NCBI GenBank assembly: GCA_902594865.1
Contig: CACJNV010000001.1
Span: 1 to 64,000 of the forward strand
From: an uncultured Pelagibacteraceae bacterium
GTDB lineage: Bacteria > Pseudomonadota > Alphaproteobacteria > Pelagibacterales > Pelagibacteraceae
Reading direction: 5' to 3'
DNA: 64,000 nucleotides
The notes under the pieces: generated by a model
The model's input: only the letters and a program-made list of their open reading frames with translations
Database searches by the model: none
What the model was told of the DNA's origin: nothing
Shown: positions 39,179-58,419 of the stretch, piece after piece
How the letters are laid out: each line of letters begins with the position of its first letter
How positions within the stretch are numbered: position 1 is the stretch's first letter
Position numbers and translations under genes: made by a program

Positions 39179-39208
39179 TTTATCTAGTTTTTTTAATAAA
39201 AAAGAAGC

Positions 39209-39430: not shown

Positions 39431-39443
39431 AAATTTTTTTGAT

Positions 39444-39530
39444 TTATTTTTTTATTAGTGAGCGAGCTATTTTCATCCAATTGAAATCTTTATAGATAGC
39501 CGTTGTTGTTACAATTCTTCCTGAACTAGA
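39444..39530 (-). pseudogene. 3'-terminal remnant of a serine-hydrolase (beta-lactamase family) gene
   Basis: Minus strand translates SGRIVTTTAIYKDFNWMKIARSLIKK*, 20/26 identical by eye to TGRIVTTMAIHRDFNWMKIAHSVIKK at the C-terminus of the intact gene at 51674..53044; no upstream gene body remains. Confidence 0.75.
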
Positions 39531-39571
39531 AATCTTTTTACAATATAGTCAAGTTAAACTAATATAAATTT

Positions 39572-40357: not shown

Positions 40358-41806
40358 TAATTTTAAATTTCTTTTTGTTATTAATTTAACATCTTTCAAG
40401 TTTTTAATTGATGCAAGAATAAATCTATCAGGTCTAATAATTAAACCTTCACAATTTGCATTTTCTAAATATCTTGAAAGCTTGGTATTACTTTTATTTC
40501 TATAAAAGTTAATTTTTTTTGACAATGATCGTTTGAATTTATTTGAAAGAACTAAAATTGGTTTTTTAGAAAATTTTATATCTAAATTTTTTCCATTATT
40601 TTTAAATTGTGGAAAAATGTTTCCTCTAAATTTATCTTTTGGCTTACCTAAACCACGTCCAAGCTTAGGTTTTATTGATTTCATACTTTTTGTACCTTTG
40701 CTATCTGCTGAAATATTATTAGTTATTGGTGATTTTCCTACTGCATTTACAAACTCTCCCATACGCATTGTAGTTTCAATATATTCTTTAACATTTGAAA
40801 ATCTCTCTGTTTGGTAGGTTTTTAAAAGCTTTTCGTCATGTTTATTATTTAAACAATGTGAAATCTTCCATGCAAGATTTGAAACATCTCTGATACCAGC
40901 ACACATTCCTTGACCCATAAATGGTGGCATCAAGTGGGCCGCATCTCCAGCTAAAAAAATTCTCCCTTTTTTCCAACTTTTAGCTAGTGCTGATTGAAAT
41001 GTATATATTGTTTTTCTCTCCATTCGAGCTTCTTGCTTTTTAAGCCAAGGCTTTAAAAAATTCCAAATATACTTATCAGAAAGAATGGTTTCTATTTTTT
41101 CAGTTTTTTTAATTGCAAACTCCCATCTTCTTCTTTTACCTACATTTCTACAATAAGTAGCGGGTCTTGCAGGATTTGAATATTGAATAGTCCTGTCAGG
41201 TAAACTTTTCTTATTTTTATTTAATATTAAATCTATTACTGCCCATTTTTGAGTAAAACCAAGATTTTTCATTTTTGTTTTCATTTGTGATCTTGTTATT
41301 GAATTAGCTCCATCACAACCAATTAAATATTTTGATTTTATATTAAATAATTTTTTTGAATTAATGTCTTCAAATGTGATATCTACATCATTTTTATTAT
41401 TCATAATTTTTTTGACATTAGAACTTTGTTTAATTTCAACCTTTTTGTAAGATTTTAGTTTCTTTCTCAGTTCTCTTTCTAAATCGGGTTGGTTAAATCT
41501 ATAACTAGGATACCATCCATTTTCTGTAATTTCTCTTGGTCTTGGCCAATCTAAAATTACTCTATTTTTTTTATCAACAAACTTTGTTCCCTTATTAATT
41601 ATTGTGTATTTTAAAAAAGTATTAGTTATACCAATTGTTTCAAACACCCTCATTACTTCATCATCAAAATGAACAGCTCTAGGTAATGGATAAAAACTTT
41701 TTTCCTTTTCCAAAACTAAAATTGAAAAACCATGTAGAGCTAATAAATTTGCTAAAGTGCCTCCTGTTGGACCAAAACCTACAATTACAACATCATACTT
41801 TTTCAT
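40349..41806 (-). CDS. FAD-dependent aromatic hydroxylase (MhpA/PheA-TfdB type)
   Basis: YDVVIVGFGPTGGTLANLLALHGFSILVLEKE, CDGANSITR, RIFLAGDAAHLMPPFMGQGMCAGIRDVSNLAWKI. Confidence 0.87.
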   Translation of the reverse strand: MKKYDVVIVGFGPTGGTLANLLALHGFSILVLEKEKSFYPLPRAVHFDDEVMRVFETIGITNTFLKYTIINKGTKFVDKKNRVILDWPRPREITENGWYPSYRFNQPDLERELRKKLKSYKKVEIKQSSNVKKIMNNKNDVDITFEDINSKKLFNIKSKYLIGCDGANSITRSQMKTKMKNLGFTQKWAVIDLILNKNKKSLPDRTIQYSNPARPATYCRNVGKRRRWEFAIKKTEKIETILSDKYIWNFLKPWLKKQEARMERKTIYTFQSALAKSWKKGRIFLAGDAAHLMPPFMGQGMCAGIRDVSNLAWKISHCLNNKHDEKLLKTYQTERFSNVKEYIETTMRMGEFVNAVGKSPITNNISADSKGTKSMKSIKPKLGRGLGKPKDKFRGNIFPQFKNNGKNLDIKFSKKPILVLSNKFKRSLSKKINFYRNKSNTKLSRYLENANCEGLIIRPDRFILASIKNLKDVKLITKRNLKLLI

Positions 41807-41825
41807 TTACAAAATAATAATCCTG

Positions 41826-42800
41826 TTATTTTTTGTTTATAGTATTTGAATATAACCAAGGGCAATCAATAAAAAGTGGTGCTTGTTTTCCTTCTGAAGC
41901 GGTTTCTAATCTTTTGTTTCTAAATTTCATTCTTTCTTCATCTGGCAAATATAGTCTTTCATGACCCCAAAAACTTGGTCCCTCAAAAGTTTCAATAGGT
42001 TTCCATGTTTTTGGATCAATAATTCTTCCACCCCATCCATTTTCAATAAAAAAGCCTGATGGTGTTATTGAATAAAATGAAGTCATATAATCATTTGTGT
42101 GTCTGCCTAAAGTGTAAGCAATTTTATTATCTTCATATTGTAACAAATCATATCCTTGGCCAACATCATCAAGACTATTGTATTCTACCATAAAATGATG
42201 GAAGCCTGTTCTTCCTGATCCAAATAACGCTAAACTATGATGTCTCCCGTTAACATGAAAAAAACATAAAGATATAGGTGTGTGACTATAGTCACTTATT
42301 TTAAAACCTAAAACCTCTGTATAAAATGGTATCAAGTCATCAACTTTTTTTACATGTATGACAGCATGACCCATACCTAATGCGCCAGTTTTAAATCCAG
42401 AGATAGGACGACCTGGTTTAAATGGATCACTGTCATTCATTGGATTATAAACTAATTCAATTCTATTTCCTTGTGGATCATTAAAATAAATTAAATCTTC
42501 TACAAATCTCTGATCAGCAAATGAATTTTTTCCTTGGGTTACCTCAATTTTATTTTTTTCTAGCTTTGAGGCAAAAGATTGTAAATCGTCTTTATTTTCA
42601 ACCTCCCAACCTAAAAACCCAAGATTATCTCCTTTATCACCAGTTATAGTTAAACGTTGTTTTTGATCGTCCATTCGAAAAGATAAAATACCTTTTCCTC
42701 TATCAACTAGTTGCATTCCTAAATTTTTTTGACTGTAATAAGACCAGTCTTCAAATTTATCTGAGTTTACTCCAATATAACTTAGAGCTTTTATAGCCAT
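41826..42800 (-). CDS. Type I extradiol ring-cleavage dioxygenase (two-domain VOC, BphC-like)
   Basis: Two VOC modules; candidate metal/catalytic residues in LGMGHAVIHV, GRHHSLALF, GFHHFMVEY, GFFIENGWGG. Confidence 0.83.
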   Translation of the reverse strand: MAIKALSYIGVNSDKFEDWSYYSQKNLGMQLVDRGKGILSFRMDDQKQRLTITGDKGDNLGFLGWEVENKDDLQSFASKLEKNKIEVTQGKNSFADQRFVEDLIYFNDPQGNRIELVYNPMNDSDPFKPGRPISGFKTGALGMGHAVIHVKKVDDLIPFYTEVLGFKISDYSHTPISLCFFHVNGRHHSLALFGSGRTGFHHFMVEYNSLDDVGQGYDLLQYEDNKIAYTLGRHTNDYMTSFYSITPSGFFIENGWGGRIIDPKTWKPIETFEGPSFWGHERLYLPDEERMKFRNKRLETASEGKQAPLFIDCPWLYSNTINKK

Positions 42801-42819
42801 TTAAAATTCCTAAAATTAA

Positions 42820-42846
42820 ATGAGCCCACATAAAGTGTGGGCTCAT
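42820..42846 (-). terminator. Strong hairpin between the TRAP solute-binding protein and dioxygenase genes
   Basis: ATGAGCCCACA-TAAAG-TGTGGGCTCAT, 11-bp perfect stem, followed on the minus strand by ATTTAATTTT. Confidence 0.7.
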
Positions 42847-42863
42847 AAATAGTGTGCGTTATT

Positions 42864-43874
42864 TTAGCCTTCTACAGCTGTGATAATTTCTCTTGCTCTA
42901 TTTAGAACAGCGTCACCATCAAGACCTTTTCCACTCATTTCTTTTAACCAATTTGACTCAATTGGTGCTAAGATTTTTTTGTATTCGGCAATAACATCAT
43001 CTGATGCAATTATAATTTCATGGCCATCTCTTTTTGAGATTTCATTTTTCATAATCGCATTTTGATTATCAATTAAACCTGACGCCCAATCACCAAAAGC
43101 ATGGCCACTATATTTATTTATGCAAGCCTGATCTCCTGCTGGTAAACTATTGAATTTATCTTCATTCATAATTAAACCAAATGTAGCGTTAGTGATATTA
43201 ACTTCAGTATGATACTTGGTTACATCAAACAATCTGAATGAACCCACAGCAGTGTATGGAAATGGAGTTCCATCTACAACACCTTTGCTTAAAGCTTCAG
43301 AAGTTCCTGGAGCAGGTACTTTCACTCCCGTTGCACCCAAAGTTTTTAAAATTGTTCCAGCAATTTTACTTGGTACTCTCATCTTTTTACCTTTAAAATC
43401 TGCAGGTTTAACAACTTTAGTATCCTTCATATGAATTTGATATCCAGGATTAGAGTGAAGACCGATTACTTTAATTCCTGCCATTTCTTTGTCTAAATAT
43501 CCCTCATTAAAAAGAGTGTTTAGAGCTGTAGTTCCAGCTTTAGACGTTCTTGTAAGAAACGGTAATTCAATTACTGAACTTAAAGGAAATTGACCTCCAA
43601 TGTATCCTAAAACTGTCCATGAAATATCAGCAACACCTGATGTTACGATATCATATTGTTTAGGAGGACTTCCTAGTACTCCACCAGCATACATTTTTAC
43701 ATTTAATGTTCCCGAACATTGATTAACTTTTGTTGCCCAAGCTGCAAGAATTTTACTTGCAATAAATGCTTTTGGTGGTTCAAAAGTTGCCAACTTAAGC
43801 TCGGTTGCAGAAGATGCATTAACTATACTGAAAGAAAAAATTCCAATAATTAATCCAATTAATTTCTTTTTCAT
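42864..43874 (-). CDS. dctP: TRAP transporter substrate-binding protein (DctP family)
   Basis: Signal peptide; KMYAGGVLGSPPKQYDIVTSGVADI, FKGKKMRVPSKIAGTILKTLGA. Confidence 0.88.
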   Translation of the reverse strand: MKKKLIGLIIGIFSFSIVNASSATELKLATFEPPKAFIASKILAAWATKVNQCSGTLNVKMYAGGVLGSPPKQYDIVTSGVADISWTVLGYIGGQFPLSSVIELPFLTRTSKAGTTALNTLFNEGYLDKEMAGIKVIGLHSNPGYQIHMKDTKVVKPADFKGKKMRVPSKIAGTILKTLGATGVKVPAPGTSEALSKGVVDGTPFPYTAVGSFRLFDVTKYHTEVNITNATFGLIMNEDKFNSLPAGDQACINKYSGHAFGDWASGLIDNQNAIMKNEISKRDGHEIIIASDDVIAEYKKILAPIESNWLKEMSGKGLDGDAVLNRAREIITAVEG

Positions 43875-43924
43875 AAAATTATCCCCTTATTGTTTAAAAT
43901 TATTCTAAAATAGTAACTTGAAAT

Positions 43925-44776
43925 TTAGATTATTTCATCTTTTATTGTGTTAGATAAAACACCAATTTGGGTCACTTCTACCTCTACTTTATCGCCAGGT
44001 TTCATGAAAACTGGTGGGTTTCTTTTAAATCCAACACCTCCTGGTGTCCCTGTAACCAATACATCTCCAGCTCTCCATGCCATTGCTTTTGAAACATAAG
44101 AAATCAATATTGGTATATCAAAAATTAATTGGCTTAATTTAGCATTTTGCATCACTTCACCATTTAATCTAGTTTCAAGAGTAAGTTCTTTATAATCTTT
44201 GATATCTTCAGCAAGAACCATGTGTGGGCCAAAGCTTCCTGTCTTTTCAAAATTTTTTCCCATTCCAAATTGTCTTGTGTGTCTTTGCCAGTCTCTAATA
44301 GTACTTTCGTTATAACAAGAATAACCAACTATGTGTTTTAAGGCATCTTCTGGCTTTATATGTTTGCCACCTTCTCCCATTATTACAGCCATCTCACCCT
44401 CAAAATCTAAATTGTCAGAAGCAATCGGTCTTTGTATTGCTTGTAAATGTGCAGTTTGACTTTCTGGGAAACGATGAAAAATTACAGGATTTTCCTCAAC
44501 AGTTCTATTTGTTTCCTTAACATGTTCACTATAATTCAAGCCTACACAAATGATTTTTCCAGGATTTGGTATTAATGGTAAATATTCAATATCATTAACG
44601 CTTAAATTACCAGGGTTTGCAGAAGCATATTTTTTTGCTTCTGAGATACCTTTTTTGAAAATTAGATCTTTTAAAGAAGTTGCTCCTAAAATTTTTCCTG
44701 TGAGATCTGTTATAAGATCATTATCTAAAATACCAAATTTATGTTCATTGTTATGCGAATAAGAAATAAACTTCAT
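43925..44776 (-). CDS. Fumarylacetoacetate hydrolase family protein
   Basis: KIICVGLNYSEHVKE, DFEGEMAVIMGEGG, GDVLVTGTPGGVGFKRNPPVFMKPGDKVEVEVTQIGVLSN. Confidence 0.92.
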   Translation of the reverse strand: MKFISYSHNNEHKFGILDNDLITDLTGKILGATSLKDLIFKKGISEAKKYASANPGNLSVNDIEYLPLIPNPGKIICVGLNYSEHVKETNRTVEENPVIFHRFPESQTAHLQAIQRPIASDNLDFEGEMAVIMGEGGKHIKPEDALKHIVGYSCYNESTIRDWQRHTRQFGMGKNFEKTGSFGPHMVLAEDIKDYKELTLETRLNGEVMQNAKLSQLIFDIPILISYVSKAMAWRAGDVLVTGTPGGVGFKRNPPVFMKPGDKVEVEVTQIGVLSNTIKDEII

Positions 44777-44848
44777 AAATAATACTTTCTGTTTTAAAAC
44801 AACCTTATATGCTAATGTTTCATATATTTGAAGATAGTTTTTTAAAAT

Positions 44849-45328
44849 ATGAATAAAATATTTGATTACTCAGCAATTGCCTCTGGATTGATACTTTTAC
44901 TTTTATCTGTATTAACTTTTTGTGACGTATTTGGTCGAAGATTTTTAAACTCTCCTGTTACAGGAACAATCGAATTAGTTGAAATTGGTATGGCTTTAGT
45001 TGCTTTCTTAGCAATGCCCAGAGCTTTTTTTTTAAATGCAAATGTATCTGCAGATTTTATTAATAATTTAAATTTAGGAATATTTAAAACTTGGCTCATA
45101 ATTTTTAAATTTTTTTTAATGATAATCATTATGTCTTTAATGGCATATGCAACGACAAAAACATCACTGAAATTTATGACAAATGAAAGAGTTACGATTG
45201 ATTTAGAATTATATTTTTATCCTTTTTATTTTATTTGTGCTTTTGGTATGTGGCTAAGTGTATTAGCTATTATTTTTTGGTTTATTAAAGAATTATCTCA
45301 AACAAAGACTACAAAGGAAAATATTTAA
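44849..45328 (+). CDS. dctQ: TRAP transporter small permease (DctQ)
   Basis: Four hydrophobic segments; FCDVFGRRFLNSPVTGTIELVEIGMALVAFLAMPRAFFLNANVSAD. Confidence 0.88.
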   Translation: MNKIFDYSAIASGLILLLLSVLTFCDVFGRRFLNSPVTGTIELVEIGMALVAFLAMPRAFFLNANVSADFINNLNLGIFKTWLIIFKFFLMIIIMSLMAYATTKTSLKFMTNERVTIDLELYFYPFYFICAFGMWLSVLAIIFWFIKELSQTKTTKENI

Positions 45329-46641
45329 TGGAAATGGGTCCAATCATTAATGGAGGTATAGCTTTTGCTGCAGTCTTAATACTTATGGTTTTAAATATCC
45401 CAATTGGGATTGCAATGTTACTTGTTGGATTCACTGGATTTGCATTAATATCAGGTTTTGATCCTGCTATTTTTGTTTTAGGAACTGCACCTTTTGATGC
45501 AGTATCAAAATATACTTTATCAGTACTTCCGCTTTTTGTTTTGATGGGAAATCTTGCAAACAGTGCAAACTTATCTAGAAATTTATATGATGCTGCTTAT
45601 GCGGTTGTTGGTCACTACAAAGGTGGTTTGGCAATGTCAACTGTTGGAGCTTGTGCAGGTTTTGGAATGATTTGTGGATCTTCTATTGCAACCGCAGCAA
45701 CAATGTCTCAAATGGCAGGACCAGAAATGAAAAGACATGGTTATAGTGATGCTTTAATAAGCGGATCAATCGCATCCGGAGGAACTCTTGGAATTATAAT
45801 CCCTCCAAGTGTTATTTTAGTCATTTATGCATATTTAACAGAGCAATCAGTTCAAGAACTATTCTTTGCAGCATTAATTCCAGGACTTATAGCTGTAATT
45901 TTATACATGATAGCGATAAGGGTTTATCTCATAGTCTATCCATCACAAGGAGGTTATGGAAAAAAAATGCCTCTTAACGAGAGAATTTCTGCAATTTCAA
46001 AAGTATTTCCAATTTTTTTGATCTTTACAATTATAATGGGTGGTCTTTACTTGGGTTTCTTCACCGCCACAGAAAGTGCTGCCGTTGGAGTAATTTTAGT
46101 TTTAATTTTTATTTTTGCTAGAGGGCAACTAACTTTAAATTTATTAAAAGATGCATTATGGACAACAATTAAAACTGTTGGTTCTTTATATTTAATTGTA
46201 ATTGGCGCAAGTATATTCAATTATTTAATTACAGTAACACAACTTCCTTTTGCAGTTGTTGATTTTATAAATTATTTAGAACTAACACCATTGGGAATTA
46301 TTTTAGTCATATGTGTAATCTATCTTGTGCTTGGAACTGTAATGGACTCTTTAGCAATGTTATTTTTGACAATTCCAGTTTTTTTTCCAGTTATTGTTGA
46401 TGCAGGTATAGATCCTGTTTGGTTTGGTATTTTTGCTGTAATAGTAGTTGAGTTTGGATTGGTCTCACCACCTGTTGGAATGAATTTGTTTGTAATTAAA
46501 GGAGTGATGCAAAACACACCTCTTCAAACTATTTGGTTTGGAACAATTCCTTTTTTACTAACCGATGTAATTAGAGTTGCGCTTATTATTGCTTTTCCAG
46601 CGATATGTTTGTATTTACCAAGTTTAATGGCATCTTCCTGA
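45328..46641 (+). CDS. dctM: TRAP transporter large permease (DctM)
   Basis: VLPLFVLMGNLANSANLSRNLYDA, CGSSIATAATMSQMAGPEMKRHGYSDALISGSIASGGTLGIIIPPSVILVIY. Confidence 0.93.
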   Translation: MEMGPIINGGIAFAAVLILMVLNIPIGIAMLLVGFTGFALISGFDPAIFVLGTAPFDAVSKYTLSVLPLFVLMGNLANSANLSRNLYDAAYAVVGHYKGGLAMSTVGACAGFGMICGSSIATAATMSQMAGPEMKRHGYSDALISGSIASGGTLGIIIPPSVILVIYAYLTEQSVQELFFAALIPGLIAVILYMIAIRVYLIVYPSQGGYGKKMPLNERISAISKVFPIFLIFTIIMGGLYLGFFTATESAAVGVILVLIFIFARGQLTLNLLKDALWTTIKTVGSLYLIVIGASIFNYLITVTQLPFAVVDFINYLELTPLGIILVICVIYLVLGTVMDSLAMLFLTIPVFFPVIVDAGIDPVWFGIFAVIVVEFGLVSPPVGMNLFVIKGVMQNTPLQTIWFGTIPFLLTDVIRVALIIAFPAICLYLPSLMASS

Positions 46642-48225
46642 TTACCAAACACCAATCATAATACCATCATCTTTGGTATAGTCTCTTTCTTTAGTTACAA
46701 ACTCATCAGTAGCTGCAACTCTATTTTTTCTATCTATAATTCTTTTTAAAAGTAATTCTTTCATTTCTTCTCTTATCTTTGAATGTTTTTCAGATTTTCC
46801 CAAATCATTAAATTCGTCAGGATCATTTTTCAAATCAAACAGTTGCGGCTCAAATCCTTTGTAATAAATATACTTCCAATCATTATTCCTTATCATAAAA
46901 GCTCTAGCGTCTGATGCTCCTATGTTCAGAATTTTTCTAGCTTCATTAAATGCATAGTCTATTTCACTAAATACAAATTTCTTCCAATTCTTAGTGCTTT
47001 CCCCTTTTAATAATGGAATTAATGAATTTCCTTCTAATCTATGTTTGCTTACTGGACTTTCTACTGCATCCAAAAAAGTTGGTAACAAATCTATTGCCTC
47101 AATAAATCTTTTTTCCTTTATCCCTCTAGTTTTATTTGCATAATCACTTGGATCATAAATAATCATTGGAACTCTAACTGACTGCTCATGGAATAATTCT
47201 TTTTCTCCTAACCAATGGTCACCTTGGTAATCTCCATGATCTGAAGTAAATATGATCATAGTGTCATCCATATGACCAGCTTCCTCTATAAATTTAAATA
47301 ACCTTCCTAAGTTATCATCAATTTGCTTAATCAATCCCATATATCCAGAAAGAACTGTGTTTCTCACTTCATCTTTTGAAAAAGTTTTAGAAATACTATT
47401 TTCCATAAACGCTTTGTAAACTGGGTGATCATTATTTCGTTCAGCATCATTTCTATGAACAGGATAAAATTCATTAGCAGAATACATATTATGATAAGGA
47501 GCTGGTGCCATATAAGGCCAATGAGGTTTGATATAAGATAAATGTAAAAACCATGGTTTATCTTTACTTTCCTCTATAAATTCCATTGCTCTATTAGTCA
47601 TGAAAGCTGTTTCTGAATGTTCCTCTGGAATTCTTGCAGGTTTATTAGAATTTCTTAACCTCCAACCACTTAGTATTTCACCATTTTCTCCTTCAGCAGA
47701 ATTTGCCCAGTCATTCCATGGATTAGGTCCATCATATCCAAGTTTATTTAACCACTCATTATAAGATAAAGTATTTTTTGAATTTTTAATTTGATTATTT
47801 GGATGAAGTCCATCATCTCTTTCATAAGGTTCAAATCCTGGTTCACTAACTATCAATCCAATTTCAGTATCTTTAGTAATACCAAGTCTACTCATGCCTT
47901 CTAAATCTGGTCTCATGTGTGTTTTACCAACTACTCCTGTTCTAATCCCAGATTGTCGTAGATAATCTCCAATAGTTAATTCTCCAATTGGAAGTGGCAC
48001 CTGATTCCAAGTTGAGCCATGACTAAAAACTGTTCTACCAGTATAATAGGACGCTCTTGAAGGACCACACACTGGTGATTGAACAAATGCAGATTCAAAC
48101 TGAACTCCTTTTTTTGCTAAACCATCAATATTTGGAGTTTTTAAATGAGGATGTCCATAACAGGATAAATAATCCCATCTTAACTGGTCAGCCATTATAA
48201 AAAGAATATTTCGAATTTTTTTCAT
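46642..48225 (-). CDS. Type I sulfatase
   Basis: NILFIMADQLRWDYLSCYGHPHLKTPNIDGLAKKGVQFESAFVQSPVCGPSRASYYTGRTVFSHG (C-x-P-S-R-A formylglycine site), FTSDHGDYQGDHWLGEKELFHEQSVRVPMIIYDP. Start moved to MKKIRNILFIMADQ. Confidence 0.9.
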   Translation of the reverse strand: MKKIRNILFIMADQLRWDYLSCYGHPHLKTPNIDGLAKKGVQFESAFVQSPVCGPSRASYYTGRTVFSHGSTWNQVPLPIGELTIGDYLRQSGIRTGVVGKTHMRPDLEGMSRLGITKDTEIGLIVSEPGFEPYERDDGLHPNNQIKNSKNTLSYNEWLNKLGYDGPNPWNDWANSAEGENGEILSGWRLRNSNKPARIPEEHSETAFMTNRAMEFIEESKDKPWFLHLSYIKPHWPYMAPAPYHNMYSANEFYPVHRNDAERNNDHPVYKAFMENSISKTFSKDEVRNTVLSGYMGLIKQIDDNLGRLFKFIEEAGHMDDTMIIFTSDHGDYQGDHWLGEKELFHEQSVRVPMIIYDPSDYANKTRGIKEKRFIEAIDLLPTFLDAVESPVSKHRLEGNSLIPLLKGESTKNWKKFVFSEIDYAFNEARKILNIGASDARAFMIRNNDWKYIYYKGFEPQLFDLKNDPDEFNDLGKSEKHSKIREEMKELLLKRIIDRKNRVAATDEFVTKERDYTKDDGIMIGVW

Positions 48226-48229
48226 AGTA

Positions 48230-49750
48230 TTAATATTTTTCAATTCCAAGATATGCAAACTTTGAGTCTGTAGAAGGTATTGTGACAAACAATCTGTAAA
48301 AATTGTTATTTTTTTTAAAAAAACTAGAAGCTCGTTCACAACCATATAACCCAAAATTTTCTTGGTTAAATGATTTAGATGCTTGTTCAAAAGATTTGTT
48401 GTCTTGATTAAAATACATTGCACTTACTTGTTTTTTACAATCAATCCATGGATTAAACCAATCCTCTTTAAATCCATAAATATCATCTGTTCCATCTTTA
48501 TTTATATCTGCAGTTTCAATTCTAAATGAACCATTGAGAGAAACTGGCATTACCTGATATTTTTCAAATGACTTGTCATTATTGTTTTTAAAAACATATA
48601 AAAACTCTTCAGTCTTACAATCTTTTCCACGATCAAATGGTTTTGAATTATCTCTTCGCTTACAAACTACATCTTTAGCAACACCAATACTATCTGTATT
48701 ACCATCTTTGTTAAAATCTATAGCGGTAGAAATCCATGCTCGATCAGCCATTTTAAAAACTTTTTTATCTGATCCCTCTTCCCAATATCCAGGTTTGTCG
48801 TTTATATCTCCTGTCCATATTAGAAAGTTTGCTTTATCAGTTGGTTTTTCTTTAAATTGATAGCTATCAAGTTTTTCAAATTTTAATTTATTTTTTTTAC
48901 TAGTTACGTTAGACCAACAAAAAGTTGTATTTCCCAAACCTGGGCAACTACCAAAAATAATTGCTCCCTTTTTTGATGGCAGAATATGATTAAATCCAAT
49001 GTCTATAAAATTATTTGCTTTTTTAGCTTTTCGACATTTATTGGTTTTCATATCACAAATTTCAATAGCACCAGGTTTTTGGTCGCCATAGAAGTAATCA
49101 ATAATTTCATAATATCCATCTTGATTAAAATCAAAATACATTAAATCATGAGAGAAGTGAGGTGATCCAAAACTTTTTAATTTATTTGAATTTAAATCAA
49201 AAATATAATTAACATCTTTCCAGCTGCTATTTCTGTTTCTCCCATCTTCACGATTTCCTAGATAAACTATTTCTTCATTTCCATCGCTATCAATATCCAA
49301 AACATTCATTCTTCTAGCGGTCAAAGGTAATGTTAAGTGATTAGATTTTAATTCTAAATTATCTGTTTTAAATAAATTATCTAAATTTTCTAAACTTATA
49401 CTGACAAGATGCGAAAATGGTTGTTTGTCAGATTGTTTTCCCCACTCAACTATATTATTCCAAGTATGAGCAATAATTTTATTTCCATCTTTATTATTAA
49501 TATATTCTAATAATTGAGGAGAGTTCCAAGTATTAATTGAATAATCGTGTGATTTTACCTCATAATGATTTTCTAGCTTCTGAATAATTAAACAACTGTT
49601 TTCAGATTTAGTTCTTATAAATTCTGATTTAATTTGCTCACATCTAAAAGGCTTAAATGTAACATTTTCATTAATAACTTTTTCATCAGAATAAGCATTA
49701 AAATTCAACAACAATAGACATAAAAATAAAATTAATAAATTTTTTTTCAT
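48230..49750 (-). CDS. Secreted FG-GAP/VCBS-like protein with Ca-binding-type Dx[DN]xDG motifs
   Basis: Signal peptide; DIDSDGNEEIVYLG, DFNQDGYYEIIDYF, DFNKDGNTDSIGV, DINKDGTDDIYGF. Confidence 0.72.
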   Translation of the reverse strand: MKKNLLILFLCLLLLNFNAYSDEKVINENVTFKPFRCEQIKSEFIRTKSENSCLIIQKLENHYEVKSHDYSINTWNSPQLLEYINNKDGNKIIAHTWNNIVEWGKQSDKQPFSHLVSISLENLDNLFKTDNLELKSNHLTLPLTARRMNVLDIDSDGNEEIVYLGNREDGRNRNSSWKDVNYIFDLNSNKLKSFGSPHFSHDLMYFDFNQDGYYEIIDYFYGDQKPGAIEICDMKTNKCRKAKKANNFIDIGFNHILPSKKGAIIFGSCPGLGNTTFCWSNVTSKKNKLKFEKLDSYQFKEKPTDKANFLIWTGDINDKPGYWEEGSDKKVFKMADRAWISTAIDFNKDGNTDSIGVAKDVVCKRRDNSKPFDRGKDCKTEEFLYVFKNNNDKSFEKYQVMPVSLNGSFRIETADINKDGTDDIYGFKEDWFNPWIDCKKQVSAMYFNQDNKSFEQASKSFNQENFGLYGCERASSFFKKNNNFYRLFVTIPSTDSKFAYLGIEKY

Positions 49751-50616
49751 TTTTGACTTTCAATTTCTTTACAAGAATATCCTAGCTCTTGAAGTTTAAG
49801 TTTTTTGCATGACTTAGCATGTCGAATTTCATCATAATAAGCTATTTGAGTTAGATCTGGCCCAGGTGTTCTAGACATATATGATCTATATATACCAAAA
49901 TGAAATTCTATTCTTTCACCCTTTTCTTGCGTTCTGCCTTTGTGGTGAAAAGTAAGTTTACCATTAATCCAAATTTTAAAAAAACCGTCTTTTTTGTGTG
50001 TCCATTTTGCATTAACTAAAATATCATGCCATTTTCCATACATTTCTGACTCGTCTATTAATTTTAATTGCTCGTTGTATCCAAGAATATAACTATCACG
50101 ATCAATCCAATAACCTCCTCCATTAAAGTGAGATTGATTTTCGAAAGCAAAAGCGGGGGGATTATCAGCATCATTATGAAATTGAGCTAACATTGTTTTA
50201 GCAGGATAAATTATTTTATAATCTTCTGGTAGATATAATGACCAAGCTGTCCATGTAGTTTTTTTATTAACGCAACATATTTTCAGCTCAACTCTTTCTC
50301 TGTCATTTCTGGAATCCCAACCCCATCCATTGCCATCTCTAACTTCAAATCTTAATGACTGATTTCCAAATCTAACAGGATGATTATCAGATTTACTAAC
50401 AATTTTAACTATATGCTCTCTTTTTGATTTATCTGATTTAAGTATTGCTTTATTGTCAATATGCCATTCGTTCCATGAATCATATTCTTTAACTTTATTA
50501 AAACCCTGGGCTATATCTTTATTTTTTTTAATTTCTTTAAGGACTTCTTCTACACTTGCAAAACTACTTCCACCTAACAACAAGCCAAGAAACAGAATCG
50601 ATAGAAGTTTTTTCAT
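49747..50616 (-). CDS. Secreted polysaccharide-lyase-like protein (heparin lyase I-like fold)
   Basis: Signal peptide; NQSLRFEVRDGNGWGWDSRNDRERVELK, WTAWSLYLPEDYKIIYPAKTMLAQFHND, GKWHDILVNAKWTHKKDGFFKIWINGKL, HFGIYRSYM. Confidence 0.75.
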   Translation of the reverse strand: MKKLLSILFLGLLLGGSSFASVEEVLKEIKKNKDIAQGFNKVKEYDSWNEWHIDNKAILKSDKSKREHIVKIVSKSDNHPVRFGNQSLRFEVRDGNGWGWDSRNDRERVELKICCVNKKTTWTAWSLYLPEDYKIIYPAKTMLAQFHNDADNPPAFAFENQSHFNGGGYWIDRDSYILGYNEQLKLIDESEMYGKWHDILVNAKWTHKKDGFFKIWINGKLTFHHKGRTQEKGERIEFHFGIYRSYMSRTPGPDLTQIAYYDEIRHAKSCKKLKLQELGYSCKEIESQK

Positions 50617-50669
50617 AGTCCTTAATTAGCAAATCCTGTTCAAAGTGTCTAATGACTACTCTATATTAT

Positions 50670-51677
50670 TTAAAACTCTAAAGTTTTTGAAGAACCATCG
50701 CTATAAGTGAACTCTACTTTTTTTTCTGAAATACTTTTTATTGATGTAAAACCATCATATTCAGCAATAAATTCATTTAACTTTTTTCTACTTTTTTTGC
50801 TCATTTTTGCGCCTGGTGCATTCACGCCAACATCAATAATTACTTCTGCCCCATTTAAAAAAGCATTTACCCAAGCTTTCACGGGAGGACCACAAGTCAT
50901 TGCTTCTGTTAACCAAATAGGTTTATCAACATCCACACTTTTTAATAATTCAGCAAATTCATCTACCCAAAGCTCTTTATCACATTGTCCATCTGGACCA
51001 CTTATGTGATGAATATTTGCTATATCAAAATAATCTTTTATTTCTGGTAATACTGATTTCCAATATTTTTTATTTTTAGGAAACATTCCTGCAGCACCAG
51101 CCATAACAATAACGGCATCTGGTTGCTTTTCTTTAATTACTTTTGATGAAAAATTAAAGATTTCAATAAAATCTTCCTTACTTCCTTTAAAGAACATTTT
51201 AAATTCTGGTTCATTCATTACATCCCAATATTTTATTGGTTTAGTTAATCCGGGCATATCATTGGAGCCATCACCATCATAACGATCCACTAATTTTACA
51301 AGAAAATTTTTATAATCATCCATAGAGCATGGTTTGCTTAAATATTTTGTAAAACGTTTGCCAAAAGCACTTTTTGCTTTTTTTCTTTTACAAGATTTTT
51401 GCTCCCAGTCTGCGTGAGGCCAGATAGTTGCGAGAATTGTTTGATTGTGCTCTTGAGCATAAACAACATATTGATCTACATCATCCCAAGTAAAATTTCC
51501 TTTATCTCTTTCAATATGATTCCAAATAAAAGGCCCTGGATGAGGTCTGACCCACTGACCATCTTTACCTCTCATTTTTTCATCACGCATTTCAGTTAAC
51601 TCACCAAATCTAGATTCAGAATTTGCGATGTTTGTTAAAAATAAAAATGATAAAAAAATTGTTAATAATTTTTTCAT
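50670..51677 (-). CDS. Secreted glycoside-hydrolase-like TIM-barrel protein (clan GH-A type)
   Basis: GNFTWDDVDQYVVYAQEHNQTILATIWPHADWEQ, WDVMNEPEF (acid/base-type NEP), IWLTEAMTCG (nucleophile-type Glu). Confidence 0.75.
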   Translation of the reverse strand: MKKLLTIFLSFLFLTNIANSESRFGELTEMRDEKMRGKDGQWVRPHPGPFIWNHIERDKGNFTWDDVDQYVVYAQEHNQTILATIWPHADWEQKSCKRKKAKSAFGKRFTKYLSKPCSMDDYKNFLVKLVDRYDGDGSNDMPGLTKPIKYWDVMNEPEFKMFFKGSKEDFIEIFNFSSKVIKEKQPDAVIVMAGAAGMFPKNKKYWKSVLPEIKDYFDIANIHHISGPDGQCDKELWVDEFAELLKSVDVDKPIWLTEAMTCGPPVKAWVNAFLNGAEVIIDVGVNAPGAKMSKKSRKKLNEFIAEYDGFTSIKSISEKKVEFTYSDGSSKTLEF

Positions 51678-53044
51678 TTACCTTTTTTGATTACTGAGTG
51701 CGCTATTTTCATCCAATTAAAATCTCTGTGAATAGCCATTGTTGTAACAATTCTTCCTGTATCAAAATCAATCATTAATGTTTGACCACCATAACCATCC
51801 ATAACAAATATGTGTCTTTTCTTCATTCCAGATGGTTCTAAATGAAAAAAACCACCATACGATTTGGTATTTGTAAATGCATGTTTTTTATTACTGTAGT
51901 CATATTTTTTTTTAACTTTTCTCTCAAAAATAGATTTTAAATACTTTCCTTCACAAGTATCATTTTGCCAATCTTGCAACATGGCTCTTGCAACCCTCAA
52001 ATAGTCATATCTGGTTGTTAAAAAGGTACTAGTTGTTGATTTATTATTATTAGATGATTCTTCACTCATTACTAAAATGGTTTCATGCTCAATACCAACT
52101 TTTTTTCTAAAAACATCATCTAATAAATTTTGAAAGTCATCCTCTCCAGCTTTGAAAATTAAATAATTCAAAATTAAATGTGGTAGTAAATTATTATAAG
52201 CCCATTTTTTTTTGGATTTTTTTGAGTCTTTTAATTCTTTATTCATTGCACTTGAAATTGTTCGGTTTGTTACAGAATATCTTGAGGATGAATTAGCAAA
52301 TATATTACTTTTATCTTCTGAAGAAAAATACTTTTCATCTCCAGCTTGCATATTTATCAAATCTATAATTTTTTGATTATGATAAAGAGTATTTTTTAAT
52401 ATAGGCCAATCATTCAATTGTGCATCAATACTATCAACGTATCCTTTGCAAATAGCATGCCCTAAAATGTAAGAAGCAAAACTTTTTCCAACTGATTGAG
52501 AGTGGTATTTAGTTTCATTTGTAAATACTTTACCAAACTTGTCTTTGGGACTTATTTCATCTACAACAATTTTTCCATCTTCATAAAGTAAATAACTTAA
52601 CAAAGCAGTTTTCTGCATTTGTTTTTTGATTATTTCATCATCTCTTAAATCAAATTTAAATTTGTATGGTTTGTCTGATGACTTAATTTCACTATACTTT
52701 GGATTATTGTTCCAATTACCATTAGTGTACTCCCAAAAATAATAAAGTAATGTTTCGTAGTTTGGCTTTTTAACTTTTTCAGGAATTTCAGATCTACCAT
52801 TGTAGGTATTAATTTTATAATTAGGTATATATTTTTTGAATTGATCACAATTATTGTAATACCAATGCTGACTGAATTTTTTTAGGGATTTACATTTTCC
52901 TTCCCCTTGACCAATCTCAAATTTAACAAATTCAGTAAATTCATGTTTTACTAACCATTTATCAAATTGTTTTAAATGGTTTTCATTTGCTTGAGCTGAA
53001 AAACTTAAAAGTAGAGATAGAAAAATAATTAATATTTTTTTCAT
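51674..53044 (-). CDS. Secreted serine hydrolase (beta-lactamase/penicillin-binding family)
   Basis: Signal peptide; ETKYHSQSVGKSFASYILGHAI (SxxK), DLINMQAGDEKYF, DYLRVARAMLQDW. Confidence 0.8.
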   Translation of the reverse strand: MKKILIIFLSLLLSFSAQANENHLKQFDKWLVKHEFTEFVKFEIGQGEGKCKSLKKFSQHWYYNNCDQFKKYIPNYKINTYNGRSEIPEKVKKPNYETLLYYFWEYTNGNWNNNPKYSEIKSSDKPYKFKFDLRDDEIIKKQMQKTALLSYLLYEDGKIVVDEISPKDKFGKVFTNETKYHSQSVGKSFASYILGHAICKGYVDSIDAQLNDWPILKNTLYHNQKIIDLINMQAGDEKYFSSEDKSNIFANSSSRYSVTNRTISSAMNKELKDSKKSKKKWAYNNLLPHLILNYLIFKAGEDDFQNLLDDVFRKKVGIEHETILVMSEESSNNNKSTTSTFLTTRYDYLRVARAMLQDWQNDTCEGKYLKSIFERKVKKKYDYSNKKHAFTNTKSYGGFFHLEPSGMKKRHIFVMDGYGGQTLMIDFDTGRIVTTMAIHRDFNWMKIAHSVIKKGK

Positions 53045-53047
53045 GAA

Positions 53048-54199
53048 TTAAGCTTTAAAGAGCTTATCAGATAAATTTTGTAAATTCTCTCCCCAAAATA
53101 CTTCTTTGGTAATTTTTTTAAAATCAACATCAAAGACAGTTGACATTGCTGAAGCATAAACTGCCCTTGAATCTATTGTAGAATTTAAGTCTCTTCCTTC
53201 AAATAATTCTTTTTTCTTTAATCCTGGCCAATCCGTATGAACTTGTGCTTTTTTAACAAGTCCTCCTGCCATTAAGATAGCTGAACCGTAACCATGCTCT
53301 GTTCCATTACTACTGTTCTGCTTAATTGTTCTTCCAAATTCTGTGAGTGTTAAAACCAAAGTATTATTGAATGCTTCTTCAGACATTGAAGATTTTAATG
53401 ATCTAACAATGTTGTCATAATCTGATAGGCAATCTGCATGAGCGCCATCTGTTGCTCCTTGCGCAGCATGCGTGTCAAAACCATCCACCTCAAAGACTGC
53501 AACTTTAGGTCCATCTGGTTTTGATAACTCTGTACCAGCACTTGAAGCTAAAATCCAAGCATCATCTCTTGATCTATTGTTAAAATCTCTTGTTAAAATT
53601 ATTTCAAGATTGTCACTTAATAATTTCTCATCGTGCTCTTTATAAGCTTGTTTTATCAATTCTAGAGTATCAGGATATGGCAAACTACGACCTACAGGAA
53701 AATAATTATTGTTCATTGGAACACCTCTAATTAATAGAGGCATAGGTAGAGCCAAAGCTAATCCTTGCCCTGTTAATCCAGCTGTTTTCATTCCTCTTCC
53801 AAGCCAACCTGTTTTTTCTTGGTAAGGTATTTTACCGCCCGACTCCATTAAATTTTGACCATCAAAATGTGATCTGCCTGTGTAAGGGATATTTGTTGCA
53901 TGCACAGCTGCACTTAAATTTTGATCCCAAAGACTTTTGAATGTCTTTAATGCTGGGTGTAAGTCAAAATCTGAGGTTAATTTTAAAGTTCTATCAAGAT
54001 TGATTTTACTTCTCAATTTCTCGAAATTTTTGTCACCCTTAACTGGAATAGCACATAAACCATCCATTCCACCACGTAACATGATTATTACTAAATTCTT
54101 TTTTGTTTTAGAATTTGCATAACTATGAGCACTGAAACCAGCAAAATATAATGAGGTTAAAGCTGTAGTTTTTAAAAAATCTCTTCTTGATATCTTCAT
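53048..54199 (-). CDS. DUF1501 family protein with Tat-like signal
   Basis: MKISRRDFLKTTALTSLYFAGFSAHSYA; NLVIIMLRGGMDGLCAIPV, TEFGRTIKQNSSNGTEHGYGSAILMAGG. Confidence 0.9.
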   Translation of the reverse strand: MKISRRDFLKTTALTSLYFAGFSAHSYANSKTKKNLVIIMLRGGMDGLCAIPVKGDKNFEKLRSKINLDRTLKLTSDFDLHPALKTFKSLWDQNLSAAVHATNIPYTGRSHFDGQNLMESGGKIPYQEKTGWLGRGMKTAGLTGQGLALALPMPLLIRGVPMNNNYFPVGRSLPYPDTLELIKQAYKEHDEKLLSDNLEIILTRDFNNRSRDDAWILASSAGTELSKPDGPKVAVFEVDGFDTHAAQGATDGAHADCLSDYDNIVRSLKSSMSEEAFNNTLVLTLTEFGRTIKQNSSNGTEHGYGSAILMAGGLVKKAQVHTDWPGLKKKELFEGRDLNSTIDSRAVYASAMSTVFDVDFKKITKEVFWGENLQNLSDKLFKA

Positions 54200-55632
54200 G
54201 CTTTTAAAAACTCCGGATGGTTAAAAAGTAAAGTATGTTTTTCGACAGATCTATTTTTTTGATTTAAGTATTTCATTATTTTACTTGGGTTGTCAAAATT
54301 ATTTTCAACCATATTCACATAATATTCTGCATTTTTATTGTTTTCCATTTTAGCAAAATTATAACTTGCTTTTGCATACACCAGCCTTCTAATTAATAAT
54401 TCCGGAGAAATCCAATCAGCAGAATGATCTGACCAACCGTTTGGTTGTTTTGCTCTGTAAGGATGATGACCAATATTTTGTAATAGCCACTCAGGTTCTC
54501 TTTGTGAGTCAAATGGTCTTTGACCTAACTCATATTTATCCATCAGATCTGGTGAAGGTGGCCAATTTAAATCTGCAATTTTAGCAACTTGAATGAGCCA
54601 GTTCTCAGGTGTCTGAAATTTTTTATATTTGTCATTGTATTCAAAAGCTACTTTAATTGCTGCCTTGTGAATTTCAGGAATAAATCCGTCAGATTTTTTA
54701 AAGGCATCAATAATCGGCTGCTTCATCTCTTTTGTAGGTTCATCTGTAATTAAAAATCTACATAGTCTTTCCGCAACAAAATCTCTACAATTAGGATGAT
54801 TAACTAAATCTTTAATTACAACGGCTAATGTTTTTTTGCCTTTTTTGTATTCTTTTCCTAAAACATTTTTTTTTCCAGGTTGATGAGTTTCAGAATTAAA
54901 CCAAACATTTCCTGTTTCTAAACTTTTTTTACCATATTTATGTTCCCATCCTGTCATAATATAAGCTAACTGAATTACATCTTCCTGTGTATACCCTGCT
55001 TTTGGAGATACAGTGTGAAGCTCTAAAAGTTCTCTTGCATGATTTTCATTAATAGTTGCAGGTTCTTTCTTTCTTCTTCGCCATTCCTCTTTGGCTGAAG
55101 TACTTTTTGGACCAACGCTTTCACTATTATCCAAATGATGTATCATTGCCCAAGATGTAGTTACATCGTATACCATTTTTTCAAATGATTGATTTAAATT
55201 TGGTCTAATAATTTCTCTTTGATATGCACCCGTTGAATAATTTGCTAAAAAATCTTTTTCGCTGATAGCAAAAAAATTTCCCCAAAACATCCATAGTTTG
55301 GCTAAAACTGGACTACTACTATTTATTCCTTCATTATGTCTGATCGAAATTTCTAAAGACTCCCAAAACTTTTGTCCTGTTTTGTGTCTAAGTATATCTT
55401 TATGAGTTTTGTATAGTGTTTTATTATCTTTATACTTTTTTCTTAATACTTTTCTGTCACCATAAACCCAATCTCTATAATGTTTTCTTAATTCTTTTTC
55501 AGAATATATTTTACCTTTCCAAGATAATTCTGGCACATCATTTACTTGATCAAGAGCCCACTTCAAAGGATCAGAGGGAGCTTGCTCATTGGGTCCAATA
55601 CCAAAAGCAACTTTTCTAAAAAAGTTTTTCAT
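54196..55632 (-). CDS. DUF1800 family protein
   Basis: KLWMFWGNFFAIS, ENHARELLELHTVSPKAGYTQEDVIQLAYIMTGWEH, NHPNCRDFVAERLCRFLITDEP. Confidence 0.9.
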   Translation of the reverse strand: MKNFFRKVAFGIGPNEQAPSDPLKWALDQVNDVPELSWKGKIYSEKELRKHYRDWVYGDRKVLRKKYKDNKTLYKTHKDILRHKTGQKFWESLEISIRHNEGINSSSPVLAKLWMFWGNFFAISEKDFLANYSTGAYQREIIRPNLNQSFEKMVYDVTTSWAMIHHLDNSESVGPKSTSAKEEWRRRKKEPATINENHARELLELHTVSPKAGYTQEDVIQLAYIMTGWEHKYGKKSLETGNVWFNSETHQPGKKNVLGKEYKKGKKTLAVVIKDLVNHPNCRDFVAERLCRFLITDEPTKEMKQPIIDAFKKSDGFIPEIHKAAIKVAFEYNDKYKKFQTPENWLIQVAKIADLNWPPSPDLMDKYELGQRPFDSQREPEWLLQNIGHHPYRAKQPNGWSDHSADWISPELLIRRLVYAKASYNFAKMENNKNAEYYVNMVENNFDNPSKIMKYLNQKNRSVEKHTLLFNHPEFLKA

Positions 55633-55635
55633 AAA

Positions 55636-56502
55636 TTACTTTATGCTATCAATGTCGTGAATGTTTGTTAAGGAATTATTAAATTCTTCAATATTTTCTC
55701 TTAAAGCTAAACTAGAAATTGAATAAATCATTATTAGTAACAAAACTAATGGTAATGAAGTTATTACTGAAGCATAGCTTTTGATCAGTAATATATAAAA
55801 AATAATAAATAAAGCTGACCGAATAAGAACAGTTTTTCTAAAAACGCTTATAATTGCAAGTGAATGTTTCAATAAATTAAAAAAACTCATCTGAGAAGGG
55901 CCGAAATATCTCTTGCCTCTTATAGAAGGAGTTGAAATTAATTCTTTTTCAATTTTTTTTAAAGATCCAGAAAAACTATTCCATGTTGCTTTTTCATCTA
56001 AAAGTTTCTTTACTGTTGATTTTGATAAACAAGTAAAATTCCCAAATTTGATTGATTTTCCAGTAAAAGCTAAAGTTAATAACTTATGAAATTGATAGCA
56101 TAATTGAAAAAATAAACCTTCAGATCTCTTAACTCTTTCACCTATAATAGACTTGCCTGATTGTTCTGAAAGTTGAATAAAATTTTTAATTTCTTCAGGT
56201 CTATCCTCTCCATCTCCATCCATTGGAATGACAAAATCAAACTCTTTTCTTTCAAAGATGTATTTTAAACCAGATGCAATACATCTTGCATGACCCCTAT
56301 TCTCTTTCATATTAACTATCTCAATTGAATTGATATTCTCAATATTTGGATAGGTATCAACTATCTGTTGAGAAGAAGCATCATTTATAACAACTATTGA
56401 TATTTCATGATTTAAATTCTTTATTTCATGGTTAATGTTTTCAATAAGTAATTTTAAAGACTCTCTGTCGTTATAAATTGGAATTAAAACTACGTATTTC
56501 AT
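55636..56502 (-). CDS. Family 2 glycosyltransferase
   Basis: VLIPIYNDRESLKLLIENI, ISIVVINDASS, DFVIPMDGDGEDRPEEI; C-terminal TM segments. Confidence 0.87.
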   Translation of the reverse strand: MKYVVLIPIYNDRESLKLLIENINHEIKNLNHEISIVVINDASSQQIVDTYPNIENINSIEIVNMKENRGHARCIASGLKYIFERKEFDFVIPMDGDGEDRPEEIKNFIQLSEQSGKSIIGERVKRSEGLFFQLCYQFHKLLTLAFTGKSIKFGNFTCLSKSTVKKLLDEKATWNSFSGSLKKIEKELISTPSIRGKRYFGPSQMSFFNLLKHSLAIISVFRKTVLIRSALFIIFYILLIKSYASVITSLPLVLLLIMIYSISSLALRENIEEFNNSLTNIHDIDSIK

Positions 56503-57825
56503 CTATCTTGAACCTACACAGACACTATCAAGACACATATAGTCTTTCAATTGATCAAGTTTTTCTCTTTCAACAAAACCTTCCCAAACTGGTCTTGATT
56601 TTAAATGATAAGATAAGTTTCCAGCATTCCACTCGTCACCTAAAACTACATTAATTGCTGAATTAAATTGTTGATCCCATGCATATTGAGTTTTCACTGC
56701 AATTTCTTTACCCATATAATCAGTTCTTTTATCGTCATTTGAGATTGAAACATAAGCGTAAAGCACTGGTGATAAAAAGAAAAAAAAAATAAATCCAATC
56801 ACAAATGCTTGTAGTTTTTTTAAGTTAATTTGTGCTTGGAATAAATAAACAAATAGCGAACCAAAAAATAGATAAAAGGGTGTCATCCACATGGTTCTAA
56901 TTTTTGAACCAGTAATTAACGATGTTAAAAGCATTAAAATAATTGGCAAAATATTAATGGCTATTAAAAAAAGTAAATTTTTATCTTTAAAGTTAATTTT
57001 AAAGCTAATTTTTTTTACTAATAACCAAATTAAAATAAAAAATGGAATTAATGTTCCTAGTTGTTTTAGCAAAAAGATTAATGGATATTTAATGTGATCT
57101 AATAAAATAGATTGTTCTAAGCCAGTTCTGGCTAATCCATATGTAATAGTAATAAAATCATTATTATATAGCCATATAAAATGTGGAACTAGAACTACCA
57201 AGAAAACTTCGATAGTGATGAGATATTTAAAATCAAACTTTCTCTTCTTTTTGAAAAAAATTAAATAAATAAATAAAAAATCGATGGATGCCAACAAATA
57301 AATAAATAAATATTTTGACAAGAATCCGAAAGCAGCAAACAAACCTACTAAAAAACAATCTAAAAACTTTATTTCTTTACCGTTATAAATTTTCCATGAA
57401 TAATAAACTGTCAAAGACCAGAAAGGTAATTGACACACATTTACATTAAATTCTGGTGTAGTGAAATTGTAAAAATAAATTGCCTCGATTAATAATACAG
57501 AAATCAAACCTAATAATTTATTGTTAAATATTTCATTTGAAAATTTAAAAACATAATAAAAAGATATAATTACGAAAATTTGACTTAATAAATAATAAAC
57601 CCAATCCTGAGGTCCAAAAATTTGATATAAAACTTCAGGAACAAAAGCACTCATCGGTGGATGTTTATTAAATCCCCAATCTAGATTACTTCCCCAAGCT
57701 AAAGCTTCGATTGTATCCAGTGGTAAATTGTGATTTGTAATTGATGGAATCAGAGTCCAAAAAATTAGATGAGCTGTAACAAAAATATAAAAAACATTAT
57801 TGATATTTTTGTTATTAATGGTCAT
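56503..57825 (-). CDS. GT39/ArnT-like membrane glycosyltransferase
   Basis: LPLDTIEALAWGSNLDWGFNKHPPMSAFVPEVLYQIFG; many TM segments; FGFLSKYLFIYLLA. Confidence 0.82.
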   Translation of the reverse strand: MTINNKNINNVFYIFVTAHLIFWTLIPSITNHNLPLDTIEALAWGSNLDWGFNKHPPMSAFVPEVLYQIFGPQDWVYYLLSQIFVIISFYYVFKFSNEIFNNKLLGLISVLLIEAIYFYNFTTPEFNVNVCQLPFWSLTVYYSWKIYNGKEIKFLDCFLVGLFAAFGFLSKYLFIYLLASIDFLFIYLIFFKKKRKFDFKYLITIEVFLVVLVPHFIWLYNNDFITITYGLARTGLEQSILLDHIKYPLIFLLKQLGTLIPFFILIWLLVKKISFKINFKDKNLLFLIAINILPIILMLLTSLITGSKIRTMWMTPFYLFFGSLFVYLFQAQINLKKLQAFVIGFIFFFFLSPVLYAYVSISNDDKRTDYMGKEIAVKTQYAWDQQFNSAINVVLGDEWNAGNLSYHLKSRPVWEGFVEREKLDQLKDYMCLDSVCVGSR

Positions 57826-57903: not shown

Positions 57904-58419
57904 ATGCCAAAGACAGCTAAAGCAAAGAAAAAAGTATCAAAACCAAAAACTAAAGTTGTAAGTAAAGCAAAACCAACTACAGCTAAAGTTGCAACCAAGG
58001 GTCCTGTAAAAATTTCAAAAACTTATGTTCCAAAAGATACTGAAAAATATATGTGTGAAAAACATAAAGTTTATTTTAGAATTAGACTGACTGAATGGAA
58101 AAAAGAATTAATTAAAGCGAATAACGAGGCACTTTATAATGGTGGTATGGATGACAATAATATTTCTGCAGATATAGTTGATCAAGCAAACTCATATATT
58201 GATAGCAATGTAGAGATGAAAGCAATTAATAGACAAATTAAATTAATATCAGAAATTGACAAAGCGTTGAGAAGAATTAGAGAAGATACTTATGGTTATT
58301 GTTTGGATACAGCAGAGCCAATTGGATTAAAAAGATTAATGGCAAGACCTGTCGCTAAATATACTATTGCTGCACAAGAAAAGCATGAAAAAGAAGAAAA
58401 AGTTCATGCAGATGACTAA
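57904..58419 (+). CDS. dksA: DksA/TraR-family regulator with Lys/Ala-rich N-terminal extension
   Basis: IDKALRRIREDTYGYCLDTAEPIGLKRLMARPVAKYTIAAQEKHEKEEK. Confidence 0.88.
   Translation: MPKTAKAKKKVSKPKTKVVSKAKPTTAKVATKGPVKISKTYVPKDTEKYMCEKHKVYFRIRLTEWKKELIKANNEALYNGGMDDNNISADIVDQANSYIDSNVEMKAINRQIKLISEIDKALRRIREDTYGYCLDTAEPIGLKRLMARPVAKYTIAAQEKHEKEEKVHADD

Follow-up and report, generated by a model that had tools for sequence, protein, structure and literature searches.

A SAR11 insertion hotspot joins a sulfatase-bearing aromatic module, a GT39-GT2-DUF1800-DUF1501 unit and variable exported enzymes

SAR11 bacteria are regarded as specialists on small, simple molecules. A row of nine genes at 46642-57825, among them a sulfatase, a polysaccharide lyase and two glycosyltransferases, lies in a 64,000-nucleotide stretch of an uncultured Pelagibacteraceae bacterium (GCA_902594865.1, contig CACJNV010000001.1; "the window" hereafter means this whole stretch). 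The closest solved structures to the sulfatase are 4upi (3e-179) and 4upl (8e-172) in the PDB, which we take to be arylsulfatases of Ruegeria/Silicibacter pomeroyi on the PehA/PMH branch of the type I sulfatases. The match is near full-length and the active-site region is shared; unlike these proteins, the SAR11 enzyme is encoded within a module for aromatic ring cleavage that has a tripartite ATP-independent periplasmic (TRAP) transporter, and its carriers are without a recognised formylglycine-generating enzyme (FGE) or anaerobic sulfatase-maturating enzyme (anSME). The Mhp and Bph meta-cleavage pathways resemble this module in an MhpA-type hydroxylase, which passes the NF004829 subfamily cutoff (496.6 vs 390 bits), and in a BphC-like extradiol dioxygenase, which falls outside the TIGR03213 BphC equivalog (263 vs 366 bits). 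They differ from it in that the SAR11 module has a TRAP importer, an HpaG-like FAA hydrolase, a beta-keto acid cleavage enzyme (BKACE) and a terminal sulfatase, and is without the mhpC/D/E/F-type order.

The lyase resembles the PL20 glucuronan lyase of Trichoderma reesei (2zzj): it scores above the PF14099 gathering score (87.9 vs 29.9 bits), its profile reaches 2zzj at 1.8e-8 with the C-terminal half aligned, and its Tyr243 pairs with Tyr200 of the 2zzj chain and is invariant in 58/58 aligned paralogues. By homology and this tyrosine it would be a PL20 glucuronan-lyase-like enzyme; unlike 2zzj, it is a bacterial exported form of low identity, with many paralogues and a predicted activity. DUF1501-DUF1800 pairs have been linked with bacterial chitin synthases (PMC5122149). 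The SAR11 genes are likewise adjacent members of these families (PF07394 and PF08811), with a Tat motif on DUF1501 and a neighbouring glycosyltransferase, but they adjoin an ArnC-like GT2 and a GT39 and no chitin synthase. The serine hydrolase has a profile match to NylB-type class C beta-lactamase-like hydrolases (4.6e-5), with which its SxxK region aligns; it differs in being divergent and below the Pfam cutoff, in having its own N-terminal region and in being shared with pelagimyophage-like contigs.

The locus is no fixed operon but an island of varying gene content, placed in an insertion hotspot of SAR11 genomes. With a probability of about 0.68, it is best explained as three modules in one hotspot: an aromatic module that includes the sulfatase, a GT39-GT2-DUF1800-DUF1501 unit, and a cargo of exported enzymes that would edit a surface glycan. 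Gene content, families, synteny, linkage and the phage-contig homologues are observed directly; substrates, the sequence of reactions, location at the surface and any part in phage interaction are deduced. The comparison covers about 90 SAR11 loci, with 31 from a lyase-based genome scan, whose predicted genes were clustered and mapped. The original prediction had read the nine genes as one operon. Its layout holds, since the nine open reading frames are consecutive on the minus strand, their families are all found with Pfam, and the start/stop ATGA overlaps at 49747/49750, 51674/51677 and 54196/54199 are exact. Profile searches bore out the sulfatase, PF14099 lyase, DUF1501, DUF1800, GT2 and PMT_2/GT39 assignments and left the GH10-like protein and the serine hydrolase below cutoff. 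The single operon itself is rejected because of synteny: the sulfatase travels with the TRAP/aromatic module, the GT-DUF unit occurs alone, and the lyase is found elsewhere.

Loci at this site are flanked by GST-DksA-GT39-GT2 at one end and by umuDC-r9-r15-r17-r18-r19 at the opposite end, and the gene content between DksA-GT39-GT2 and umuDC differs from locus to locus. The order of neighbours at umuDC is conserved in L003, L014, L023, L055 and L057-L061, and the DksA-like gene is syntenic in the GT39-bearing loci that extend far enough. In the window, the hotspot runs from 39179 to 55635, and it thus extends past the interval 46642-57825 first singled out. The border genes are as follows.

37498-39178, plus strand: umuD-umuC, hotspot border; umuC type named via Pfam IMS/IMS_C on the relative L002:17990-19267
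57904-58419, plus strand: DksA-like gene, named from its own sequence, where the constant flank has its outer border

By its linkage, the sulfatase is assigned to the neighbouring aromatic module, as its last gene, and not to the secreted glycan genes. The module comprises these genes.

39572-40357, plus strand: BKACE, at the module end (PF05853, 2e-41)
40349-41806, minus strand: MhpA-like FAD aromatic hydroxylase (NF004829; PF01494)
41826-42800, minus strand: BphC/HsaC-like extradiol dioxygenase (TIGR03213, 3.4e-78; BphC_D1)
42864-43874, minus strand: TRAP solute-binding protein DctP (PF03480, 8e-41; NF037995 over cutoff)
43925-44776, minus strand: FAA_hydrolase (HpaG-C-like) enzyme (PF01557, 3e-62; TIGR02303, 6e-47)
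44849-45328, plus strand: TRAP permease DctQ (PF04290/PF06808 for the DctQ/DctM pair)
45328-46641, plus strand: TRAP permease DctM (same pair of profiles)
46642-48225, minus strand: cytoplasmic sulfatase, convergent with DctM (PF00884, 2.6e-52)

The likeliest start of the sulfatase is the ATG at 48225, rather than the GTG at 48423; it lies 4 bases past the stop of the FG-GAP gene, so the two genes do not overlap and the sulfatase has no signal peptide. The protein combines the PF00884 profile with the C-x-P-x-R motif of type I sulfatases (VCGPSR in 37/37 relatives), and scores under the NCBIfam equivalog cutoffs for PehA (342 of 900 bits) and the PRK13759 arylsulfatase (265 of 481). It was detected in 35/397 family genomes, in 34 of them at >=78% identity, and 17 of the carriers are near-complete.

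In all 37 sulfatase genes seen, DctM lies no more than three genes from the 3' end, and on the 5' side about a dozen kinds of neighbouring gene are met with. The six remaining module genes are all present in 32/37 loci, with several of the others cut by contig or region ends, and BKACE adjoins the FAD hydroxylase in 29/33. The sulfatase search supplied 18 of the fetched loci; 20 more, from other genomes of the genus, were found solely through the dioxygenase, which is present in 26/201 genus genomes. In this independent test the sulfatase is in place at 19/19 visible loci, and the twentieth, where no sulfatase can be seen, is truncated by the end of its contig. In genus g2, four loci have the module and no lyase, GH or DUF genes, and the sulfatase carriers there have neither PL nor DUF1501.

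From these neighbours we infer that the module serves to take up an aryl sulfate, desulfate it and cleave its ring. An anionic aryl sulfate would enter through DctPQM and lose its sulfate to the cytoplasmic sulfatase. Hydroxylation by the MhpA-like enzyme would then give a catechol, which the BphC-like dioxygenase would cleave in the meta position. The FAA hydrolase and BKACE would break the resulting product down to central metabolites. Within the coverage of a literature search on SAR11 lyases, sulfatases and ring cleavage, which took in few subscription papers, neither this module nor the glycan-related one was found described.

The second module is the GT39-GT2-DUF1800-DUF1501 unit, which consists of four genes.

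53048-54199, minus strand: DUF1501 protein with a Tat-like start (PF07394, 4.5e-23)
54196-55632, minus strand: DUF1800 protein, no evident signal peptide (PF08811, 8e-72; synteny)
55636-56502, minus strand: GT2 of the ArnC-like polyprenyl-phosphate sugar transferase type, constant flank (PF00535, 1.6e-12; NF007986, 2.3e-17, below cutoff)
56503-57825, minus strand: GT39/PMT_2 GT-C glycosyltransferase, constant flank (PF13231, 6.3e-27)

DUF1501 is present in 39/397 family genomes and follows DUF1800 wherever the neighbour is visible, with GT39-GT2 directly before them in most loci. This is a recurrent unit that is also found without exported enzymes. For example, in G078 (on one contig), G143 and G216 it abuts umuC with none of them in between. 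Because of the published chitin-synthase link, DUF1501-DUF1800 is likely to be involved with an exported glycan, and the four genes would probably glycosylate and process an exported or surface glycan. The N-terminus of DUF1501 reads RRDFLK and is Tat-like, with the Pfam TAT_signal match (E 0.0015) below cutoff; DUF1800 may be exported alongside this Tat partner. The DUF1501 profile gave no meaningful match against the PDB.

Between the two lies the exported cargo.

48230-49750, minus strand: exported FG-GAP beta-propeller-type protein (PF13517, 1.1e-8)
49747-50616, minus strand: exported PL20-like polysaccharide lyase (PF14099, 1.1e-24)
50670-51677, minus strand: exported clan GH-A-like glycosidase (PF00331, 6.7e-4, below cutoff)
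51674-53044, minus strand: exported class C beta-lactamase-like serine hydrolase (PF00144, 3.8e-5, below cutoff)

Five clear Sec- or Tat-like signals had been predicted for the cluster, and by eye five N-termini do look exported, Sec-like in these four proteins and Tat-like in DUF1501. The four are variable, interchangeable cargo. Close homologues of the FG-GAP protein were seen in L062 and L063 only. The lyase is found in 156/397 family genomes (60/140 near-complete ones). It occurs at more than one locus, in some cases far from the island, and a single locus may hold one paralogue or several. The GH protein scores 19.4 of the 22.1 bits of the Pfam GH10 cutoff, and its candidate clan GH-A catalytic acids, in N155-E156-P157 and at E258, are invariant in 7/7 sequences that are themselves 83-89% alike. 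The serine hydrolase reaches 23.5 of 27 bits for PF00144, and S184-x-x-K187 is invariant throughout A3. Most likely, the target of the four proteins would be an acidic glycan on the cell surface or close to it, which they would trim or edit.

The lyase also turns up in other contexts. In L025-L029 it sits within the his operon, between hisH and hisA (L028:10001-10885). The lyases at 10001 in L007 and L009 have near-identical N-terminal halves and diverged middles, which suggests mosaic recombination among the paralogues.

Phage contigs, too, hold relatives of two of the cargo proteins. The serine hydrolase has relatives on 21 viral contigs of IMG/VR, many of them pelagimyophage-like, and on L108, L110, L112, L114, L121 and L124 it adjoins T4-like baseplate genes. 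L124 has a baseplate protein with 60% identity to that of Pelagibacter phage Mosig, and the one in L108 shares 54% with that of HTVC008M; L106 resembles other phages. In a maximum-likelihood tree of the hydrolase, phage sequences stand at three places among those of SAR11, which means at least three SAR11/phage changes; the three may also be read as one gain and two losses. Lyase relatives were found on 3 viral loci, with L102 46% identical to a SAR11 paralogue in L032. One such relative, lipoprotein-like, lies on a 328-kb viral contig (L103:4818-5918) beside a gene that resembles those of jumbo phages. Among 50,697 phage records, neither the lyase nor the serine hydrolase had a match, and the phage relatives come only from IMG/VR contigs. 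Pelagimyophages carry lipopolysaccharide-related glycosyltransferases that are believed to modify the surface of their host (PMC7029224), and the phage homologues seen here support a surface or extracellular glycan as the probable target, one relevant to both cell and phage.

A different explanation, which we consider unlikely, is that of a polysaccharide-utilisation island, in which the lyase, GH-A-like protein, serine hydrolase and sulfatase digest a sulfated, uronate-rich algal glycan and the TRAP transporter imports the products. The lyase, the GH-A-like protein and the sulfatase do stand in one row with the TRAP genes adjacent, lyase paralogues and an alginate-lyase-like gene pile up in some genomes, and a ROK-family kinase adjoins the TRAP genes in L005, L006 and L015. 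However, the sulfatase is cytoplasmic and is tied to the aromatic enzymes even in genomes that have no lyase, GH or DUF1501. The degradation of a sulfated glycan, as originally proposed, is unsupported since the genes do not travel together as a unit. The TRAP transporter is rejected as a sugar importer for the lyase because its genes go with those for the dioxygenase and hydroxylase. No SusCD or sugar ATP-binding cassette transporter was seen nearby, which agrees with the original prediction, but a TRAP transporter and an aromatic gene set, which it had not mentioned, directly adjoin the sulfatase. KDPG aldolase and GH88 were not found in 20 genomes, 15 of them lyase carriers, in a search that did not extend to non-phosphorylating 2-keto-3-deoxygluconate or other sugar routes; these genomes therefore lack the path by which the products of such lyases are usually metabolised. 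The locus thus differs from a polysaccharide utilisation locus in both co-conservation and catabolic genes. Given this lack of canonical uronate catabolism (0/20) and the phage-contig homologues, surface-glycan editing appears to be the better reading over feeding, as first proposed, and is retained for the secreted genes only.

That the genes make and trim a single surface glycan as one operon, with the sulfatase in its sulfation cycle, is very improbable. The shared strand, the ATGA overlaps and the GT39-GT2-DUF1800-DUF1501 unit would fit it, but the sulfatase is without a signal peptide and constantly linked to the other module, the enzymes in between are variable and dispensable, and other genomes have genes for urease, IMPDH or PEP carboxylase at the equivalent position. 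A sharper form of the exported-cargo part of the three-module explanation is tentative, though it deserves more weight: the lyase and hydrolase cargo of cells and pelagimyophages may alter a receptor glycan and so bring about resistance or superinfection exclusion. It draws on the serine-hydrolase homologues beside baseplate genes, interleaved with SAR11 in the tree, on the lyase homologues on phage contigs, and on the strong presence/absence variation. Against it, the phage copies could be auxiliary metabolic genes, and the isolate phage records gave no match. It is rather doubtful that all of this amounts to a transferable SAR11 pathway for aryl-sulfate import, desulfation and ring opening, with a Cys-type sulfatase matured by a third, undescribed route, and with lyases and serine hydrolases traded with pelagimyophages over a surface glycan.

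Several observations weigh against the three-module explanation. One concerns maturation of the sulfatase. An FGE elsewhere in the genome had been named as something to check, and PF03781 was not found in the window's own genome. A single-span FGE match was seen in 0/34 sulfatase carriers and anSME (TIGR03942) above cutoff in 0/18, with both searches limited by draft assemblies. The sole PF03781 matches among carriers (G069, G224, G234, G378) are split, lie in frames of about 410 residues and look EgtB-like. Since the carriers have no recognised maturase, the protein is perhaps inactive, or else its maturation follows a route not yet described; incomplete drafts may explain some of the absences, yet 17 carriers are near-complete. 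Also, the aryl-sulfate substrate is deduced from neighbouring genes, and the lyase, GH protein and serine hydrolase could act on an external polysaccharide. The AlphaFold models of the GH protein (predicted local distance difference test, pLDDT, 48.6) and of DUF1800 (pLDDT 49.1) were too poor to check or use. Lastly, in this genome the nine genes share one strand and are tightly packed, and their co-transcription is possible; a promoter and terminator scan gave signal at chance level.

Among the sulfatase carriers without a recognised FGE or anSME are G000, G088, G152 and G001, and near-complete genomes are included.

If the three-module explanation is right, the TRAP-sulfatase-hydroxylase-dioxygenase module, carried by about 9% of the 397 family genomes as judged by the sulfatase, would add sulfated aromatics to the SAR11 diet and provide a testable consumer for the ocean's organosulfate pool. 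With known maturases absent from the carriers, the old question of whether formylglycine can form by another route becomes open to test. An exported hydrolase family common to SAR11 and pelagimyophage-like contigs, in turn, points to the surface glycan as contested ground.

The hotspot has other occupants elsewhere, which include genes for urease, PEP carboxylase, IMP dehydrogenase and adenosine deaminase. In L006 (8750-11233) and L015 (12719-15241), an 800-residue protein without a Pfam match adjoins a small partner and the GH gene. A urease operon, complete or partial, is at the hotspot in L002, L004, L020, L032, L055, L060, L061, L066 and L068, and lyases flank some of the copies.

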